DNA of 64,000 nt. Origin: an uncultured Phycisphaeraceae bacterium. Its GTDB lineage: Bacteria; Planctomycetota; Phycisphaerae; Phycisphaerales; UBA1924. Below, piece after piece: positions 10,868 to 61,183 of this stretch (positions are counted from its first letter, which is position 1; the number at the start of each line of letters is the position of its first letter). Where the stretch lies: NCBI GenBank assembly GCA_937899905.1, contig CALCCF010000041.1, forward strand, positions 43,605 to 107,604, read 5' to 3'. Both the position numbers and the translations under genes were made by a program. A model generated the notes under the pieces. The model saw only the letters and a program-made list of their open reading frames with translations, did no database searches and was not told where the DNA came from.

Positions 10868-10944
10868 GGGCGGAGGGTAGGGGGGCGGTTGGGACGCGTG
10901 GGGTGGTCCCGGGCTGGTGCTTTGGTCGCGGGCCGCTGACCGAC

Positions 10945-11274
10945 GCCACGGCGCGGCGGCGGACCGCCGCGCCGTGGCTCGACCAATGGGGTTGTTTTAT
11001 GGCGCTCGCGGTGCTCGCTTGCGGCCTGGCGGCCGGGCGTCGGGGACGCCTCGCGGGGACATGCGCCGCGGCGCCCGCGAACGGGCTTGGGCGGATGTCC
11101 CCGCGCCGTTGCGCTGCGCTGCAGCATCCGCCCAAGCTGTCCGCAGCGCCGGGCGCATGCGGAGGCGAGGCCGCTTCTGCGGCCCGGGCGAAGCCCGCAA
11201 GCGAGCGGAGCGAGCGCCATAAAGCAACCCCGTTAGGCGAGCACGGGCGCAGTCGTCTTCGACTCCGCCCGTGC
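10945..11274. repeat. 330-bp quasi-palindromic element bounded by two 34-nt hairpins
   Basis: Hairpin L 10945-10978 (15-bp perfect stem, CGGA loop); hairpin R 11241-11274 (15-position stem with 1 mismatch, TCTT loop); inverted arms starting GGGGTTGTTTTATGGCGCTCGC (10988) and ending GCGAGCGCCATAAAGCAACCCC (11231); inner 12-bp perfect IR CTTGGGCGGATG (11086-11097) / CATCCGCCCAAG (11125-11136). Confidence 0.85.
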
Positions 11275-11346
11275 GTCAAACACCCTTCATCTCTGGACGC
11301 GCAACGCGAACTCCTTTCGCGCACCGCATCACGAATTCATGCAGGC

Positions 11347-12045
11347 TCAGGCCGCCTCCATCTGCCCACCGGTCTGCCCGCTCTGGACTTCGTTACTGGG
11401 CACGCCCAGGCTGATGACAACAGTCGCCGTCCACGGGCTCACGCGCGTGTCGGTGCCGGCCTTGCCCACGCCCGACGCCGGGCGCTTGGCGCGGATGCGG
11501 TAGCCGGCCTGGGCCGTGCCCGCGGGCACGCCGCCGTCGAGCAGTTCGCGCGTGGTCACGGTGTCGACGGCGGTCCACGTCTGCTGGCTGTCGAGCGATC
11601 GCTGGACCTCGTAGTACGTGCCCAGTGCGAGCGAGCCCTCCCAGCGCAGCTCGACCAACCCCTGCGGGCGCAGGCCAATGGTGACATTCGTTGGCGCGAC
11701 GGGGTCGGGGCTGGGCGTCGGCTGGGCGGGCGGCTCCAGGCCGGCGGCGGCGTACACGCCAGGGTCGCTCTCGGCGCGGGCGTAGGCCCAGATGGTCGCG
11801 ATGAGCCCAGACGCGAACGCGCGCATGTCGCCGATGGCCTGGTCGCGCGTGGACAGGGCGTTCTCGGCGGCCAGCGCGGCCGCCTGCTGGCTCGCGTACG
11901 AATCGCGGGCGGCCTGCGTAAGAACGGTCGCCGCGTTGACCTGCTCAACCGATAACCCCACGGCCGCGGGATCGGCCGCCCACAGGGGCAGGCGTTCTTC
12001 GAGGTACTCGATGGGGGCGACGATGGGGCTCTTGGGGATCGACAT
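11347..12045 (-). CDS. FN3-like domain protein, paralog of 34634..35290
   Basis: MSIPKSPIVAPIEYLEERLPLWAADPAAVGLSVEQVNAA... helical N-terminus, Pro-rich linker, FN3-like C-terminus VELRWEGSLALGTYYEVQRSLDSQQTW...VPAGTAQAGYRIRAKR; clear match to the 34634 ORF. Confidence 0.75.
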   Translation of the reverse strand: MSIPKSPIVAPIEYLEERLPLWAADPAAVGLSVEQVNAATVLTQAARDSYASQQAAALAAENALSTRDQAIGDMRAFASGLIATIWAYARAESDPGVYAAAGLEPPAQPTPSPDPVAPTNVTIGLRPQGLVELRWEGSLALGTYYEVQRSLDSQQTWTAVDTVTTRELLDGGVPAGTAQAGYRIRAKRPASGVGKAGTDTRVSPWTATVVISLGVPSNEVQSGQTGGQMEAA

Positions 12046-12177
12046 GCGCGACTCCGTTCCGGTGCGCGGCGTGCGCCGCTGGGTTTCGTGCGGGCGCCGT
12101 GCCCGCATTTACCCGAGCGTCGGCGACCGCGCCAGACGGCTTCACCGTTGCAATCCGCAAAACCCGCCCCGATGTGC

Positions 12178-12471
12178 ACCGCGCGTCCGGGAACAGCCCG
12201 CGCGCGTCCGACAACCGCACCAACACGACCGAAAACCGCGAGCGAGCGCCGGGCGGACGCGGGCTCCCCCTCGGGAGTTTGCGATTGCCGGCCTGCGGAC
12301 GGGGATTGCCGGCCCGCGGGTGGCAATTGCCGGGCTGTATTCTCGGATTGCGGGCCCGCGTTTTGTGATTACTGGCCAGCAGATTTCGATTGCAGCCCCG
12401 GAAGATCGGGTTGGCAAGCCGCACGTTGCGATCGCGGACGCGCGACCGGCGGTCAGGGCTGCCGCCAGATG
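12178..12471. repeat. Array 1: degenerate 21-bp tandem repeats
   Basis: Clear consecutive 21-nt units from 12283 (gattgccggcctgcggacggg / gattgccggcccgcgggtggc / aattgccgggctgtattctcg / gattgcgggcccgcgttttgt / gattactggccagcagatttc / gattgcagccccggaagatcg / ...); weaker 21-nt periodicity upstream (GCGCGTCCG at 12181 and 12202; AAC[CA]GC at 12192, 12213, 12234). Confidence 0.85.
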
Positions 12472-18576: not shown

Positions 18577-20436
18577 TTAGGGGCACCCGGCGTCGAAGGC
18601 GTTCTGGAACCCCAGGAAGTCGAACAGCGTGAAGCGGCCATCGCCGTCGAAGTCGGCGGCCGGGTCCCGCGCGTCGAAGAAGTTCTGGAAGGCCAGGAAG
18701 TCGGCGACGTCCAGGCTGCCGTCGCCATTGAGATCCGGCGCACAGGCGACCGGGTCGCGACCGTACACGATGGAGCACTCGCCGCTGGCGTCAAGCCCGC
18801 CGCCGTCCGCTCGCGGCGCGGCGATGATCATGTCGTCCCTGCCGTCGCCGTTTACGTCGCCGGCCGAAGCCAAGGCGGCGGCGCTCTGGGTGAACTCGCC
18901 CGTGCCGTTAAGCTGGAAGCCGGTGGATTGTTCGAGATCGCTCAGGCGAACGATCGCCGGGAAGCCCGCCCCCGACGCGCCGTCGCGGCCATAGACCACG
19001 TACGACTCACCCGCCCACTCGTCGCCCCCCGGATCGGCAGTCACGGCCCCGATGATCACGTCATCCAGGCCGTCGCTGTTCACGTCGCCCGCGCCCGCCA
19101 CGGTCCAGCCCGCAAAGTCCCCCGGGTCGATGCCATCGATGCGGAACCCCGTCGTGCCGTCCAAGGTGTCCAGCCGGATGGCCGGGGGGAATGGCCCAGA
19201 GACGGAAGCGTCCTGGCCGTACAGCACGTAGCTCGAGCCGGTCTCGGTTCGTCGATCGGGGCTGGCGACGGGCGCGCCCACGATCAGGTCGTCGATGCCG
19301 TCGTTGTTGAGGTCCCCCGCGCCGTCGACCGAGCGGCCGCTCAGATCGAACGCGACCGCGCCGTCGAGGCGGAAGCCGTCGATGCCGTCGAGATCGGCGA
19401 GCTGGATGACCGGCGCGAACGTTTCGCCCGCGCCCGAATCGCGACCATGGATCACGTAGGTCGACCCCGCCTCGGGCCGACCGCCCGGACTGGCGCGCCA
19501 GGCGCCGATGGCGATGTCGTCCAGGCCGTCGTGGTTGAGGTCCCCCGCCGGGGCAACCCAGCTGCCGCTCTGGTCGGTCTCGCGCTCGCCGTCCAGGCGG
19601 AATCCGGTCGTGCCGTCAAGGTCCGACAGCCGCACCTCCGCAGGGAACGCGGCGCCCGACGACGACCGCCGACCAAAGAGCACGTAGGTCGAGCCGGCCT
19701 CGAACCGCCCGCCCGGGGAGGCGCGGAACGCCGAGATCACGACATCGTCGATGCCGTCGCCGTTGAGATCTCCCGCGGCGGACACCGACGTACCGGCGAA
19801 GTCGAAGTCGGTGGTGCCGTCGACCCGGAAGCCGCTGACGCCATCGAGGTCCGCCGGGGTCATGGCGGCAGGGAATGGCTCGCCCGCGCCCGCATCTCGG
19901 CCGTAGATCACGTACGCCGATCCGGCCCAGATGCGTCCACCGGGACGGTCGTTGGGTGTCCCGATGATCACGTCGTCGATGCCGTCGCCGTTGACATCGC
20001 CCGCGCCGGCGACGGAGGTTCCCAGGTTGCCAAACTCGGTGACGCCGTCGATGCGGAACCCGTTGGTCCCGTCCAGATCGGCCAGCGACGGGGCGGCGGG
20101 GAAGCCGCCGGCGGCCGCGCTCCGCCCGAAGATGACGTAGGCCGAGCCGGCCAGGGTCACGCCACCGGCATCGGCCCGGCTCGCGCCGATGATCAGGTCG
20201 CCGATGCCGTCGCCGTTGATGTCGCCCACCGACGCCACCGACTGGCCCAGCCGGTCCTCGGATCGCTCGCCCGCCACGCGGAACCCGATCTGGCCGTCGA
20301 GCGTGTCCAGTTCGAGGGCCTTGGGGAACGGCCTGGTGAGCGGGTCGGTCTGGGCGAACGCCTGAGACGCACAGAGGACCGGCAGGCCCGCGGCCGCGGT
20401 CAGCAACAACACTTGGAGACTCCCTCGCTTCATCAT
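18577..20436 (-). CDS. FG-GAP repeat secreted protein with C-terminal GC-type dockerin-like module
   Basis: Repeated VASVGDINGDGIGDLIIGAS-type FG-GAP units; ends CAPDLNGDGSLDVADFLAFQNFFDARDPAADFDGDGRFTLFDFLGFQNAFDAGCP. Confidence 0.9.
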   Translation of the reverse strand: MMKRGSLQVLLLTAAAGLPVLCASQAFAQTDPLTRPFPKALELDTLDGQIGFRVAGERSEDRLGQSVASVGDINGDGIGDLIIGASRADAGGVTLAGSAYVIFGRSAAAGGFPAAPSLADLDGTNGFRIDGVTEFGNLGTSVAGAGDVNGDGIDDVIIGTPNDRPGGRIWAGSAYVIYGRDAGAGEPFPAAMTPADLDGVSGFRVDGTTDFDFAGTSVSAAGDLNGDGIDDVVISAFRASPGGRFEAGSTYVLFGRRSSSGAAFPAEVRLSDLDGTTGFRLDGERETDQSGSWVAPAGDLNHDGLDDIAIGAWRASPGGRPEAGSTYVIHGRDSGAGETFAPVIQLADLDGIDGFRLDGAVAFDLSGRSVDGAGDLNNDGIDDLIVGAPVASPDRRTETGSSYVLYGQDASVSGPFPPAIRLDTLDGTTGFRIDGIDPGDFAGWTVAGAGDVNSDGLDDVIIGAVTADPGGDEWAGESYVVYGRDGASGAGFPAIVRLSDLEQSTGFQLNGTGEFTQSAAALASAGDVNGDGRDDMIIAAPRADGGGLDASGECSIVYGRDPVACAPDLNGDGSLDVADFLAFQNFFDARDPAADFDGDGRFTLFDFLGFQNAFDAGCP

Positions 20437-20478: not shown

Positions 20479-20507
20479 AAGTTACCAGAAACCGGCGAGG
20501 CTGTCAA
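20479..20507 (-). promoter_or_regulatory. Sigma70-type promoter for the 18577..20436 gene
   Basis: Minus strand TTGACA - 17 nt (GCCTCGCCGGTTTCTGG) - TAACTT, 43 nt upstream of the start codon. Confidence 0.75.
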
Positions 20508-20575
20508 GGGCGAACACCGAACGCGGAGCCGCTGTGTGGCTTCCTTGCGAGGCGATCGCGAAGACCCACGCCGCG

Positions 20576-20764
20576 ACCTTGCGGGCCCACAACGCCTCGA
20601 TGCAAGGCCGCAAGACGATGGCGGGCATGCACGACACGGCATCGCGGGCCCACATCACAGCAATGCGGGCCCGCGACACGGCATTGGAGGCCTGCGCGAC
20701 GGCGTCGCAGGCCTGCACGACCATGTCGCAGGACTGCAGAACCGTTTTGCAGCGGCGTTATCCG
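20576..20764. repeat. Array 2: nine consecutive degenerate 21-bp repeats
   Basis: accttgcgggcccacaacgcc / tcgatgcaaggccgcaagacg / atggcgggcatgcacgacacg / gcatcgcgggcccacatcaca / gcaatgcgggcccgcgacacg / gcattggaggcctgcgcgacg / gcgtcgcaggcctgcacgacc / atgtcgcaggactgcagaacc / gttttgcagcggcgttatccg, all exactly 21 nt. Confidence 0.9.
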
Positions 20765-20863
20765 GTCGTGCGGTCGCGAGTTTGTGCCGGTTTGCCGCGA
20801 GAGTTGGGTGGTGTGCGGGGTGCGCGTGCGGTGAGGCTTCGGGCGGGCCCACACACCGGTGGG

Positions 20864-32724: not shown

Positions 32725-34029
32725 CTACGGGCAGCCCGCGTCGAACGCGTTCTGGAAGGCGAGGAAGTCGAAGATGGTGAACTCGCCGTCGCCGTCGAAG
32801 TCGGCGATCGGATCGCGTGCGTCGAACAGGTTCTGGAACGCCAGGAAGTCGAAGATGGTCAGCGAGCCATCCCCGTCGAGGTCGGCGGGGCAGGGCGAGT
32901 CAACGCACTGGTTGAGCAGCACGCTCGCTTCGCGGCTGCCCTCGACAGCGGCGGCGACGTCGATGGCGCCGTCGCTATTCAGGTCCGCGGCCACCACGCC
33001 CACGGGTCGCGCTCCAACCAGGAAACTCCGCTCCGCGTCAAACCTGCCGTCGCCGCGACCGATCAGCACGCTGACGTCGAGTCCACGCCCGTTGGCAACG
33101 ACCAGATCTGGAATGTCGTCGCCATCCAGATCGGCGATGGCGATGTCCATCGGCGCCGTGCCGGCGGCAAAGCTCTGGCGGGGTTGGAACGAGCCGCCGC
33201 GTCGGCCGAGAAGCACACTTGCCGTCCCGCCGTCATCGTTCGCAACGGCGATGTCGAGCACGCCATCGAGGTTCAGATCACCCAGCGCTAGGCCCTGGGG
33301 CTCATCGCCCGCGGCGAACGTTGCCTGATCCTGGAACGTGCCATCGCCGCGGCCGAGCAGCAGGCTGATGTCGTTGCTCTCCTCGTTGGACACGACCGCG
33401 TCGAGGTTGCCGTCTCCATCCAGATCGGCCAGCGCGACGTCCTGGGGCACGCGGCCCACGCGGACGCGTGCCAGCGTGTCGAACGTGCCGTCACCCTTCC
33501 CGATCAGGATGCTGGCGTCGTTATCGTCTTCGTTGGCAACGATCGCGTCGAGCGCGCCGTCACCGTTGAGGTCGCCGAGCGCGACGCCTTGTGGCGTTGT
33601 GCCGACGCTGAAGAGCTGCTGGCGCGCGAACGTGCCGTCGCCCCTGCCGAGCAGCACGCTGACGTCGCGACCCTCTTCGTTGGTTGCGACGATGTCGAGC
33701 ACATCGTCGCCGTTGAGATCACCCAGCGCGACGCCCTGTGGATCGCGACCGGCATCGAAGCGAAGCTGCTGCTCGAATGTGCCGTCGCCGCGCCCAAGGA
33801 GCACGCTGATATTGTCGGTCTCTCGGTTCGTGACGACCAGATCCGGGTTGCCGTCACGATTGAGGTCCCCGACGGCGATGTCCTGTGGCAGTGTGCCAAC
33901 GTCGTATCGGACCTCGTCGCCGAACAGCGCGTCGGGATCACAGTCCTGGGCGAGTAGGGCTGGTGGCAGGATTACCGGAACTGCCAGTGTGGCGATCCTG
34001 ATGCGGCGCGTGGCATGTAGTTGGGGCAT
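32725..34029 (-). CDS. VCBS-repeat secreted protein with GC-type dockerin-like module
   Basis: Tandem VALGDLNGDGALDAIVANEDDNDASILIGKGDGTF units; ends CPADLDGDGSLTIFDFLAFQNLFDARDPIADFDGDGEFTIFDFLAFQNAFDAGCP. Confidence 0.9.
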   Translation of the reverse strand: MPQLHATRRIRIATLAVPVILPPALLAQDCDPDALFGDEVRYDVGTLPQDIAVGDLNRDGNPDLVVTNRETDNISVLLGRGDGTFEQQLRFDAGRDPQGVALGDLNGDDVLDIVATNEEGRDVSVLLGRGDGTFARQQLFSVGTTPQGVALGDLNGDGALDAIVANEDDNDASILIGKGDGTFDTLARVRVGRVPQDVALADLDGDGNLDAVVSNEESNDISLLLGRGDGTFQDQATFAAGDEPQGLALGDLNLDGVLDIAVANDDGGTASVLLGRRGGSFQPRQSFAAGTAPMDIAIADLDGDDIPDLVVANGRGLDVSVLIGRGDGRFDAERSFLVGARPVGVVAADLNSDGAIDVAAAVEGSREASVLLNQCVDSPCPADLDGDGSLTIFDFLAFQNLFDARDPIADFDGDGEFTIFDFLAFQNAFDAGCP

Positions 34030-34334
34030 TGGTCTCTCCTCATCCTCGTCTTCGAGTCTCAAGATTATCGCAGGCATCGGTGATTTCTTATGTGTGCGAG
34101 GGGTATTGACTACGACCCGTCCCGCAGACTTCGCACCAACTTCACACTCGCGTGCAACGAGCCAAGTGAATCACGAGCGTGGTGGATTGAGCGGCTCGAG
34201 CGCTTGGCCGAACATCATGGCCGCCCGCTCGGACGCGAAGATCGATCAGTTGGTTGCGATGCTGGGCTGATCCTTCGTCATATCTGGCTGGGCTGCGATC
34301 ACCAACGGCCGGCCCGCCGTGACCATCGGCCAGT

Positions 34335-34461
34335 GTTCTGGGACGCACGTCACGGTTCTGGGACGAGACCCATGCAATTCTGGGACGCAACGCTCATGTT
34401 CTTGGACCGCCAGCACAGATTGTGGCGGTTGGCGCGATCGCAACGCTGCAGGTTGCGGTGC
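34335..34461. repeat. Array 3: degenerate repeats of about 21 bp
   Basis: ttctgggacgcacgtcacgg / ttctgggacgagacccatgcaa / ttctgggacgcaacgctcatg / ttcttggaccgccagcacaga / ttgtggcggttggcgcgatcg; unit starts 34336, 34356, 34378, 34399, 34420 (spacings 20, 22, 21, 21). Confidence 0.75.
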
Positions 34462-34633: not shown

Positions 34634-35290
34634 ATGAGCGTCATACCCGACGGCCGCAGCGAGGCGATCGACTGGTTCACCAATCGCCTAGCCGCGTGGC
34701 AGGCCGATCCTTCGGCGATCGGTCTCACGCCCGAACTCATCAACGATCTGGCAACAGCTGCCGCCGATGCTTCGTCGGCTCGGCAGACGGCCGAGCAGGC
34801 TAAGTTCGTCAAGCTCGCCGCCTCGCAGGCGTACCGCAACAAGGCCGACGCGATGCGCACCATCGGCGTCGGACTGGTTCAACAGATCCGCGGATATGCC
34901 AAGGCGACGGGCGACGAATCGGTCTTCTCGACGGCGTTGTTGCCCGATCCCGCACGACCCGAGCCCACCCCGGCCCCCGGCACGCCGTACGACTTCGGCA
35001 TCGAGCTTCGCCAGGACGGTTCGGTGGAGCTGAGCTTCAAGTGTGACAACCCGGGGAACGTTGCAGGCGTGACTTACGACGTGTCGCGACAGGACGACCC
35101 TCAAGGGGAGTTCGAGTATCTGCTCACCGCGGGCGAGCGCCGCTTTACCGATGCCACCGTGCCCGCTGGGACGGCCGTGGCCACCTACCGCGTCCAAGCC
35201 CGCCGCTCGACGCAGACAGGCGACCCGGCCCTGTTCTCTGTGCGCTTCGGCGTCGGCGGGAACGGCCAGGCGATGGCCGAGGCGGCGTAG
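34634..35290 (+). CDS. FN3-like domain protein, paralog of 11347..12045
   Basis: MSVIPDGRSEAIDWFTNRLAAWQADPSAIGLTPELIND...PDPARPEPTPAPGTPYDFGIELRQDGSVELSFKC...VPAGTAVATYRVQARR aligns end to end with the 11347..12045 protein. Confidence 0.75.
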   Translation: MSVIPDGRSEAIDWFTNRLAAWQADPSAIGLTPELINDLATAAADASSARQTAEQAKFVKLAASQAYRNKADAMRTIGVGLVQQIRGYAKATGDESVFSTALLPDPARPEPTPAPGTPYDFGIELRQDGSVELSFKCDNPGNVAGVTYDVSRQDDPQGEFEYLLTAGERRFTDATVPAGTAVATYRVQARRSTQTGDPALFSVRFGVGGNGQAMAEAA

Positions 35291-58568: not shown

Positions 58569-59183
58569 ATGCCACGACCGGCCCGGTGCTGCCAACTCGC
58601 GACGATCCTGCTATTGACTGCCTTGCTGTGCGCGGTGACAAGCCTTCCTGGCTGCGGCGGCCAAGCCTTGATCACACAAGACGAGGCCCCTTCCGCCCCC
58701 GCCTCGGCGGTCGCCCCCGCCGGGCTGAGCGTCCGGGCTGAGGTCCACGTCCGCGACACCATCGCCGCCCGGCGGTACACCTCGGGTGTCTACCTGCTCG
58801 AGCCCGATGGCACCCTCAGAGCGGGCGGGCCCCAGCCCCGCTCGGCGGACGATCCGATGCCCGCCCTGCCGCAGTACCCGCCCATCCTGAGGCGGCTCGA
58901 TCCCTCGGACGTCAACCGCGTGTGGCGGCTCATCGGCGGCACGACCCTCGCCGACCCCGACAGCCCCGAGCGCATCCCGCCGATCCAGGACTGGGCGCCG
59001 CTGCCGAACCGTTCGATCGCGCTGGTCCAGATCCGCGACCGCAACGGCACGCGTCGCTTCGCCGTCTCGCTCACCGGCGCCACGCCCGCCGCTATCGAGG
59101 CCCAGGCGTTGGTCGAACGCCTCCAGGCCCTCGCGTGGAACACGCCGCAGCCATTGACCCCAACGAGCACAACCGGCCGGTAG
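58569..59183 (+). CDS. Hypothetical lipoprotein
   Basis: MPRPARCCQLATILLLTALLCAVTSLPGCGGQ lipobox. Confidence 0.65.
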   Translation: MPRPARCCQLATILLLTALLCAVTSLPGCGGQALITQDEAPSAPASAVAPAGLSVRAEVHVRDTIAARRYTSGVYLLEPDGTLRAGGPQPRSADDPMPALPQYPPILRRLDPSDVNRVWRLIGGTTLADPDSPERIPPIQDWAPLPNRSIALVQIRDRNGTRRFAVSLTGATPAAIEAQALVERLQALAWNTPQPLTPTSTTGR

Positions 59184-59203
59184 CGAATCGCTAGCCTTCG
59201 CCA

Positions 59204-61183
59204 ATGGACGAGACCGCTACCGGCAAGACCGACCCGATCATCGGGATCGACCTGGGGACAACCAATTCTCTGGCCGCCTTCGCCGACGAGCGCGGCCCGC
59301 GCGTCCTGGGCGATAGCGCGAGCGGGTCGGGCATCGTCCCCAGCGTGGTCCGCTACGAGCCCCAGGCCGACGGCTCGTTCGAGACGATCGTCGGCCTCGA
59401 TGCCCGAGAGCGGGCCGTCGAGTTTCCCCAGCACACCGTCGCCAGCGCGAAGCGGCTGATGGGCCGATCGCTTGAGGACGCCGCGGGCGACGCGCCGTAC
59501 TTGCCCTACCAACTTATCGCGGGCCCACGAGACATGGCCGCCGTCGCGATCCCAAGGCAAGGCGGCGAGCCGCTCGTCGTCACGCCGCAGCAGGTGTCAG
59601 CCCAGATCCTCCGAGCCGTGCGTGACAAGGCGGAGCAGGCGCTAGGAATGCCCGTGGGGCGCGCGGTGGTCACCGTGCCGGCGTACTTCGACGACGGCCA
59701 GCGCCAGGCCACGCGCGACGCCGGCCGCCTCGCGGGTCTCGAGGTCGTCCGCATCGTCTCCGAGCCCACGGCCGCCGCGCTCGCCTACGGACTGGGCTCG
59801 GCCCAGCGATCCAAGCAAGAGCCCACGACCGTCGCGGTTTACGACCTCGGCGGGGGCACGTTCGATATCTCCATCCTGCGGATCACGCCAAGCCCAACGG
59901 AGGGCGCGCCGGCGATCTTCCAGGTGCTCGCCACCGACGGTGATACGCGACTGGGCGGCGATGACGCCGACCACACGCTCGTCGCGTTGTTCCTCACCGA
60001 GATTAACGAGAGGTTCGGCCTGGGACTACCCGAGGACATCGCCCAAGGGCTCGCAGCATGCCCTCCGCAGACCCGCCGCGCACTGCTTACGTTCGCCCAA
60101 GACGTGAAGCATCGCTTGAGCGAGGAGGACAGCGCCGCCGTCGCGATCGATCTCGGGGAGGGCCGCGTGTACGACCGCACGATTGCGCGCACCGAGCTCG
60201 AGGAGCGCATCGAGCCCTGGATCGCCCGCTCGCTGGCCGCCTGCGATCGTGCCAAGCGGCAAGCCGCCAAGCAGCCCGGCGGTGAGACCATCGACGCCGT
60301 GGTGCTGGTCGGTGGCTCGACGCGCGTTCCCGCCGTCCGCCGCGCCGTGGGCGACTTCTTCGGCATGGAGCCCTACACCGCGCTCGACCCCGATCGCGTG
60401 GTCGCGTTGGGCGCCGCCGTGCAGGCCGCCACGCTCGCGGGCGTGAGCCGCAACAGCCTGCTGCTCGACGCCATACCGCTGAGCCTGGGCATCGAGACCG
60501 TCGGTGGCGCGGTCGCCAAGCTCATCCACGCCGGCGCGACCGTGCCCGCGCGCGCCAAAGAGACCTTCTCCACCAGCGTCGACAACCAGACCGCCATCGA
60601 GTTAAAGGTCCTGCAGGGTGAGCGCGAGATGGCCGAGGACTGCCGCGCGCTCGGCGAGTTCCGCCTCCGTGGGATTCCGCCCATGCCCGCCGGCGTGCCG
60701 CAACTGCAGGTCGAGTTCCTGGTCGACGCCAACGGCGTGCTCAACGTATCCGCGATCGAGCAGCGCTCGGGCGAGACCGCCACGCTCCAGATCATCCCCA
60801 ATCACGGGCTGACGCGCGACGAGGTCGACTCGATCGAGGCGGAAGCCATCGAGCACGCACGCGACGACATGACGCGGCACCGCATCGTCGACCTGGTCGC
60901 GCACGCGGCGCTCGACATCAAGTGGATCAATGATGCCATGGTGCGCGCTGGTGAGGCACTCGATGTCGACACTCGCGCGCGAATCGAGGGAGTTGTCCGA
61001 GAGGTCTCCGAGCTCGCCGAGCGCGCAAAGGCCGACTGGCGATCGATTGACGCCGACGCGTTCTATCGGGCGAAGCAGGCGATGGACGAAGCCAGCGTGC
61101 CGCTGCACGAGGCCGCGATCTCGCAATCCCTCAAAGGCCTGCCAAGCGACGCGACCGGACCTCGGCAAAACCCCGATCGGTGA
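59204..61183 (+). CDS. Hsp70 family chaperone (DnaK/HscA-like)
   Basis: [91 protein letters not shown]. Confidence 0.95.

Follow-up and report, generated by a model that had tools for sequence, protein, structure and literature searches.

Certain uncultured planctomycete bacteria carry arrays of 21-bp repeats that look like an unrecognised kind of multi-site control element. The arrays are paired with a family of FN3-like genes at the level of both loci and genomes, hold a strict phase, contain dyads in about half of the cases, share a loose centred pattern and turn over in sequence from locus to locus. The starting point was a 64,000-nucleotide stretch of the genome of an uncultured Phycisphaeraceae bacterium (hereafter, the window), with the following features:

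10941–11300, no strand assigned: foldback element with terminal hairpins and a long stem, immediately 3' of the gene of locus 1
11347–12045, minus strand: FN3-like gene of locus 1 (232 aa; ATG start, GGAG upstream)
12046–12179, minus strand: presumed promoter and 5' UTR leader, from array 1 to the start codon, assigned by position only
12180–12413, no strand assigned: array 1, 21-bp units with a consensus near GCGGGCCCGCAATC plus 7 variable bases
18577–20436, minus strand: secreted FG-GAP protein with a dockerin-like C-terminus, whose sigma-70-like promoter (20481–20509) adjoins array 2
20548–20824, no strand assigned: array 2, the same 21-bp element type, with a dyad-symmetric unit and no FN3-like gene
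32725–34077, minus strand: secreted FG-GAP protein whose gene lies beyond array 3 and points away from the paralogue
34250–34440, no strand assigned: array 3, weak, located upstream of the paralogue and built of TTCTGGGACG units at 21-bp intervals
34634–35290, plus strand: paralogous FN3-like gene (the window's locus 2), 37% identical to the locus-1 protein

The FN3-like gene and the arrays of the window

The locus-1 protein comprises a long helical N-terminal domain, a Pro-rich linker, an FN3 domain and a C-terminal tail ending in -AA. The initial annotation had proposed a helical N-terminus, a Pro-rich linker and an FN3-like C-terminus for a protein of about 230 aa, and the AF2 model (mean pLDDT of 90) agrees with this, placing helices at residues 9–24 and 33–92, followed by the linker, the FN3 sandwich and a tail of low confidence. 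An FN3 beta-sandwich is confidently modelled, as judged from the AF2 prediction together with PDB matches: a profile built from 86 relatives matches solved Fn3-like domains (E = 1.4e-7), and Foldseek matches to the locus-1 model cover the FN3 part only. The Pfam fn3 cut-off is passed by two distant family members, with the locus-1 protein (P0001) scoring below it; searches of Pfam, NCBIfam and Rfam returned zero matches above cut-off for this protein or its locus, and the sole PHROGs match was a weak one to an FN3-containing tail protein. The ortholog in genome G004 is 75% identical, and a search for plasmid relatives found none. At the C-terminus, an A[AGS] ending is conserved in 113 of 123 family members (54 of 866 long ORFs) and resembles C-degrons of the ClpXP type, an analogy that suggests controlled turnover of the FN3-like protein. 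Family members often end in LAA, RAA or DAA, recalling ssrA-like ClpXP degrons.

Array 1, already placed upstream of this gene in the initial annotation, is real; it has a period of 21 and is most regular at 12281–12390. TRF detects only 12281–12337 and misses the rest because the units are degenerate. Of the periods from 14 to 42 tested across the window, 21 and its multiple 42 alone gave segments above threshold; the period-21 segments are arrays 1 and 2. Array 3 also has 21 as its best lag, with a match of 0.48–0.49 that is below the threshold of the genome scan; of the two gene–array pairings originally described, both exist and the second is weak. In the leader region, 9–12 of 95 paralogues show an enriched TCGGACCAAAGTC motif at around −120, which is not evident at locus 1.

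Array 2 begins 39 bp upstream of the −35 element of a TTGACA-17-TAACTT promoter belonging to the secreted FG-GAP gene, and no FN3 gene was found within 8 kb of it. Like array 2, array 3 adjoins a secreted FG-GAP gene. When all ORFs around the loci were clustered, the FN3-like gene (131 loci) was the only family common to them. The second genuine family, of secreted FG-GAP/dockerin type, was present at around a dozen loci, frequently in divergent orientation on the opposite side of the array and with a TTGCA-N17-GGTATGCT promoter. A promoter clearly adjoins the array at array 2 and at about 15 loci, and at many others this is not clear. No reverse transcriptase, recombinase, nuclease, Cas protein, transposase or other partner recurs among the ORFs at the 131 loci.

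Co-occurrence of arrays and gene family across Phycisphaerae

The two FN3-like genes of the window are indeed paralogous, as first annotated, and represent 2 of about 24–27 copies in this genome (24 matches to the locus-1 protein, 27 to the family profile). Genus relatives hold 2, 21, 37, 41, 45 and 67 copies and many sister genera have 0; across the class, a match at E 1e-5 occurs in 78 of 398 genomes, partly representing a more distant subfamily. Members of that subfamily, about 205 aa long and ending in ...SNTVAVVL, are arranged as pairs of tandem genes in those genomes of the class that have few copies (L157, L158, L160, L162, L164, L165 and L168). The FN3-like genes are under purifying selection, with dN/dS values of 0.17–0.75. 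These genes also come and go between genomes: a G004 locus comprising an FN3-like gene, an array and a divergent dockerin-type gene (L058:2895–5078) is absent at the corresponding place in the window (59152–59234). A mobile cassette was considered for this case and is not claimed, as neither a target duplication nor a transposase is visible. One copy is internally deleted (L024 in G000:C105, 119 aa) and several copies elsewhere contain in-frame stops, a pattern pointing to birth-and-death turnover.

Defining a strong array as a best lag-21 match of at least 0.55 over 120 bp, and considering the 100 copies with 700 bp of upstream sequence, we found strong 21-bp arrays upstream of 57 of 100 copies and downstream of 0 of 102. 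More distant flanking windows contained them in 1–5% of cases (1–4 of 75–101), and lag 21 was the best of lags 12–40 in 71 of the 100 copies. In these tests, loci were treated as independent although some are orthologous. The pairing is class-wide: arrays were also detected in further families, where unit identity is higher (0.93 in L145, 0.95 in L146 and 0.96 in L148), and beside two members of the distant subfamily (L161 and L163). The view that the gene–array pairing is no coincidence, originally based on two loci, stands, and homologs of the gene do not mostly lack neighbouring 21-bp periodicity.

Across 800 kb of one complete chromosome (G004), 21 segments of period 21 were recovered and 0 at periods of 19, 20, 22, 23, 25 or 26. 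Nine or ten of them lie at most 400 bp upstream of one of the 15 FN3-like genes in this sequence; of the remainder, about ten are stand-alone arrays and one or two appear to be coding sequence. With about half of the segments away from FN3-like genes, the pairing is enriched, not exclusive, and the objection that such arrays might be equally frequent beside unrelated genes holds only in part. Array density reaches 26–30 per Mb in G004 and G005 (6 arrays in 200 kb of the latter), whereas array-like segments were not found in 800 kb taken from G002 (300 kb; a member of the same genus with 2 copies), G284 (300 kb; 0 copies) and G249 (200 kb; 1 match), the two period-21 segments of G284 being glycine-codon repeats; small samples of G003, G006 and G016 contained 0–1 arrays each. 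Thus, arrays and FN3-like genes are found together, both locus by locus and genome by genome, and either can occur alone, the comparison including few array-free genomes. Consistent with this, the G002 ortholog of the gene adjoining array 2 has no array in its flanks, a single case from an array-poor genome.

The foldback element 3' of the locus-1 gene (about 350 bp; MFE z of −12.15) follows the same gene family. In the 800 kb of G004, 8 of 8 copies (including L066:3798–4170 and L059:3808–4171) lie within 1.5 kb of an FN3-like gene, against 0.56 expected (0 of 1,000 random draws), six of them on its 3' side; in the genome of the window, the element is 3' of an FN3-like gene at 3 of 4 places. 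Six copies retain the fold, and in 13 pairs both partners have changed in a compensatory way (0 of 500 shuffles). It is present in five genomes of the genus and was not found in G002, G006 or nine other genomes searched, which makes it an add-on and not a requirement. In G004, a second copy between the gene and the array of the locus-1 ortholog (L062) suggests that the element moves; it could be a MITE-like element, a terminator or a structured RNA.

Phase, symmetry and turnover of the units

Arrays have a median of 10 units and a median position of −490 to −264 relative to the start codon, and the gap between array and start codon varies between some 65 and 600 bp. In the pooled set of 84 arrays, the match reaches 0.648 at lag 21, 0.639 at lag 42 and 0.598 at lag 63, against about 0.28 at the remaining lags, 20 and 22 included. 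Profiles of each array's own unit matched 705 times in phase and 48 times off phase inside arrays, and in the flanks 30 times at phase 0 and 4–11 times at each other phase; array detection was ungapped and favours phase-kept arrays, a bias that the off-phase test removes only in part. Orthologous leaders record 108 indel events against 498 substitutions (0.22 indels per substitution), and unit pairs within arrays differ at about 7 of 21 bases. At such a rate, free drift predicts more than one indel per junction, so that the 21-bp phase is either selected or maintained by the mechanism that makes the units. A coding explanation was discarded, 3-base periodicity being absent from unit variation (z of 0.16 ± 0.11), as was a general origin of 21 as 3 × 7, with lag 7 barely raised (0.30, compared with 0.65 at lag 21) and true 7-bp arrays found beside a few homologues only. 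These 7-bp tandem arrays, some with inverted partners, lie downstream of the gene in L142, L176 and L158 and upstream in L164, and are possibly a related element with another period near distant homologues; beside the L158 array is a four-helix-bundle gene that we take to be 23S rRNA IVP-like.

In many arrays (L078, L098, L161, L134, L170 and others), the reverse complement of the unit profile matches the array at a single, constant phase. Self-complementarity exceeds that of column-permuted versions in 53% of 102 arrays (p ≤ 0.05; 5% expected; mean z of 2.0), a significant dyad being absent from about half. Arrays also fold better than pseudo-arrays of random genomic 21-mers (z of −1.34 ± 0.17 and +0.04 ± 0.12, respectively), and this excess is equal for both strands, which favours DNA dyads over RNA. 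Centred on the dyad, the arrays share a loose common pattern with A at −6 to −2, S at 0 and T at +2 to +6 (for example, GATGGGAAATCGTTTCCGATC); the centred profiles of three array sets, from the genus, from other families and from stand-alone arrays, correlate at 0.41, 0.63 and 0.61, with random-rotation fractions of 0.010, 0.001 and 0.002.

Unit sequence is locus-specific and, by comparison of orthologs, replaceable, the period remaining constant. The unit GGGCGCAGGAA is kept across L057, L079 and L096, and ACCGCGCTGC across L078 and L098. Elsewhere the unit is wholly replaced at the orthologous site and the period is still 21 (L066/L134, L001/L062 and L128 versus L057).

Models for the arrays and known systems

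Among the functions initially suggested for the array, a regulatory one is best supported, and we give roughly even chances to its specific form, a cooperative, two-turn-phased multi-site operator for a putative dimeric DNA-binding protein. Under this model, about 8–19 weak dyad-symmetric sites would all face one side of the helix, their centres being exactly 21 bp apart. A putative dimeric protein, encoded elsewhere, would fill them cooperatively and thereby set the activity of promoters at the array edge, driving the FN3-like gene and, at some loci, a divergent secreted FG-GAP/dockerin gene as well. The binding protein, its cooperativity and the regulation are what we infer from the combination of two-turn phase, dyads, weak consensus, many sites and promoter-edge position, which matches cooperative dimers on one DNA face. 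With affinity carried by spacing and site number, drift would be tolerated, and units could drift and re-amplify locus by locus with the 21-bp phase kept. Weighing against the model are the roughly half of arrays that lack a significant dyad, the looseness of the common pattern, the variable distance to the start codon and those arrays that do not obviously neighbour a promoter.

Complete unit replacement at orthologous loci, the stand-alone arrays and the inverted units of L110 and L011 would fit a neutral or selfish satellite, in which a replication or repair mechanism always duplicates 21-bp (two-turn) blocks and arrays accumulate in permissive intergenic DNA beside fast-turnover accessory genes. 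We consider this unlikely in view of a phase that persists despite about 7 of 21 base differences with no excess at ±1, of dyads and a centred pattern shared across families, and of the upstream–downstream asymmetry (57/100 versus 0/102). That the FN3-like gene is the only family common to the loci, that array density follows gene number and that arrays are locus-specific could instead mean that the FN3-like protein, or a complex containing it, binds its own array, each pair being a separate specificity and stand-alone arrays being remnants of gene loss. This we judge improbable: the protein is acidic on average (net −2.3), structure comparison found no DNA-binding fold in it, one centred pattern is common to arrays of different loci, and a lost gene was not detected at stand-alone arrays within limited data. 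A broader variant, for which we see only a slim chance, is a chromosomal address system in which gene and array form a locus-specific recognition pair, up to 67 per genome, rewritten by unit amplification, with an invariant phase and the sequence as the address.

The initial annotation had also raised a small-RNA source and a diversity-generating locus, neither of which is supported. Arrays do fold better than column-permuted versions, as RNA hairpins, small RNAs or extruded DNA cruciforms would; yet the excess is the same on both strands, as dyad DNA sites predict, and Rfam matches and a coding signature are absent, leaving little probability for this reading. Many paralogues of varied sequence, with repeated units beside each gene, might evoke a guide array or a cassette feeding variation into the protein. 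However, neither a reverse transcriptase nor Cas nor another partner recurs, units are alike within an array and lack spacers, and the genes are under purifying selection (dN/dS 0.17–0.75), so that we regard this as extremely improbable. A CRISPR array (homogenised 21-bp units without spacers, no recurring cas gene) and a diversity-generating retroelement (no recurring reverse transcriptase at the 131 loci) were rejected on these grounds.

Plasmid iterons, direct repeats of about 20 bp upstream of a gene with near two-turn spacing, bind an adjacent Rep at the origin. An iteron requires an adjacent replication initiator, whereas the protein adjacent to the arrays is helical plus FN3 without a Rep match, and the copies are chromosomal and dispersed; this assignment was rejected. 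The TAACTGA heptamers of Beggiatoaceae likewise make up numerous tandem arrays between genes, frequently upstream of a start codon (PMC4679880), but they are 7-bp units of fixed sequence only a few bases away from it, compared with 21-bp units of free sequence hundreds of bases upstream here, and a 7-bp unit is incompatible with the lag values given above. A survey of prokaryotic satellites records few such species, with 18 bacteria above 4 satellites per Mb (PMC6749651); the repeats are tandem and intergenic in both cases, and the portion of the survey drawn on here makes no mention of dyad arrays phased at 21 bp and linked with a gene family. In ParB/parS of pSM19035, contiguous short repeats, direct or inverted, are each weak and work only as an array (PMC9499535). 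There, the repeats are 7-bp heptads that follow a single fixed consensus, and the plasmid encodes its own ParB, whereas the present arrays are locus-specific in sequence and have no linked binder.

The closest worked example, by analogy, is BvgA~P on the Bordetella promoter Pptx. On Pptx and Pfha, BvgA~P occupies tandem head-to-head dimer sites spaced by 22 bp, or two turns, on one DNA face, and on Pptx six dimers fill mostly weak, poor-consensus sites in an array that abuts the −35 element (PMC7250471). The likeness lies in two-turn spacing (21 bp here, with the register not lost), weak head-to-head sites (dyads in 53% of 102 arrays, not all) and, for array 2 and about 15 loci, promoter-edge position. 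By contrast, the arrays described here have a 21-bp spacing, usually 8–19 sites and locus-specific homogenised units, number dozens per genome and are often paired with one paralogous gene family, and their regulator is only putative.

The gene–array pairing was not found described in the open-access literature, subscription papers being outside the search, and the element as observed is new in kind, no known family matching it; should the operator model be proven, it would fall among phased multi-site operators. In bacteria, control elements are normally identified through the conservation of their sequence. What is conserved in the present arrays is spacing and symmetry, and annotation based on sequence therefore misses elements of this kind. 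If that model holds, binding across a whole regulon would be coded by phase and site number, with the sites themselves freely turning over, and the arrays would offer a way into a large and uncharacterised family of Phycisphaerae genes.
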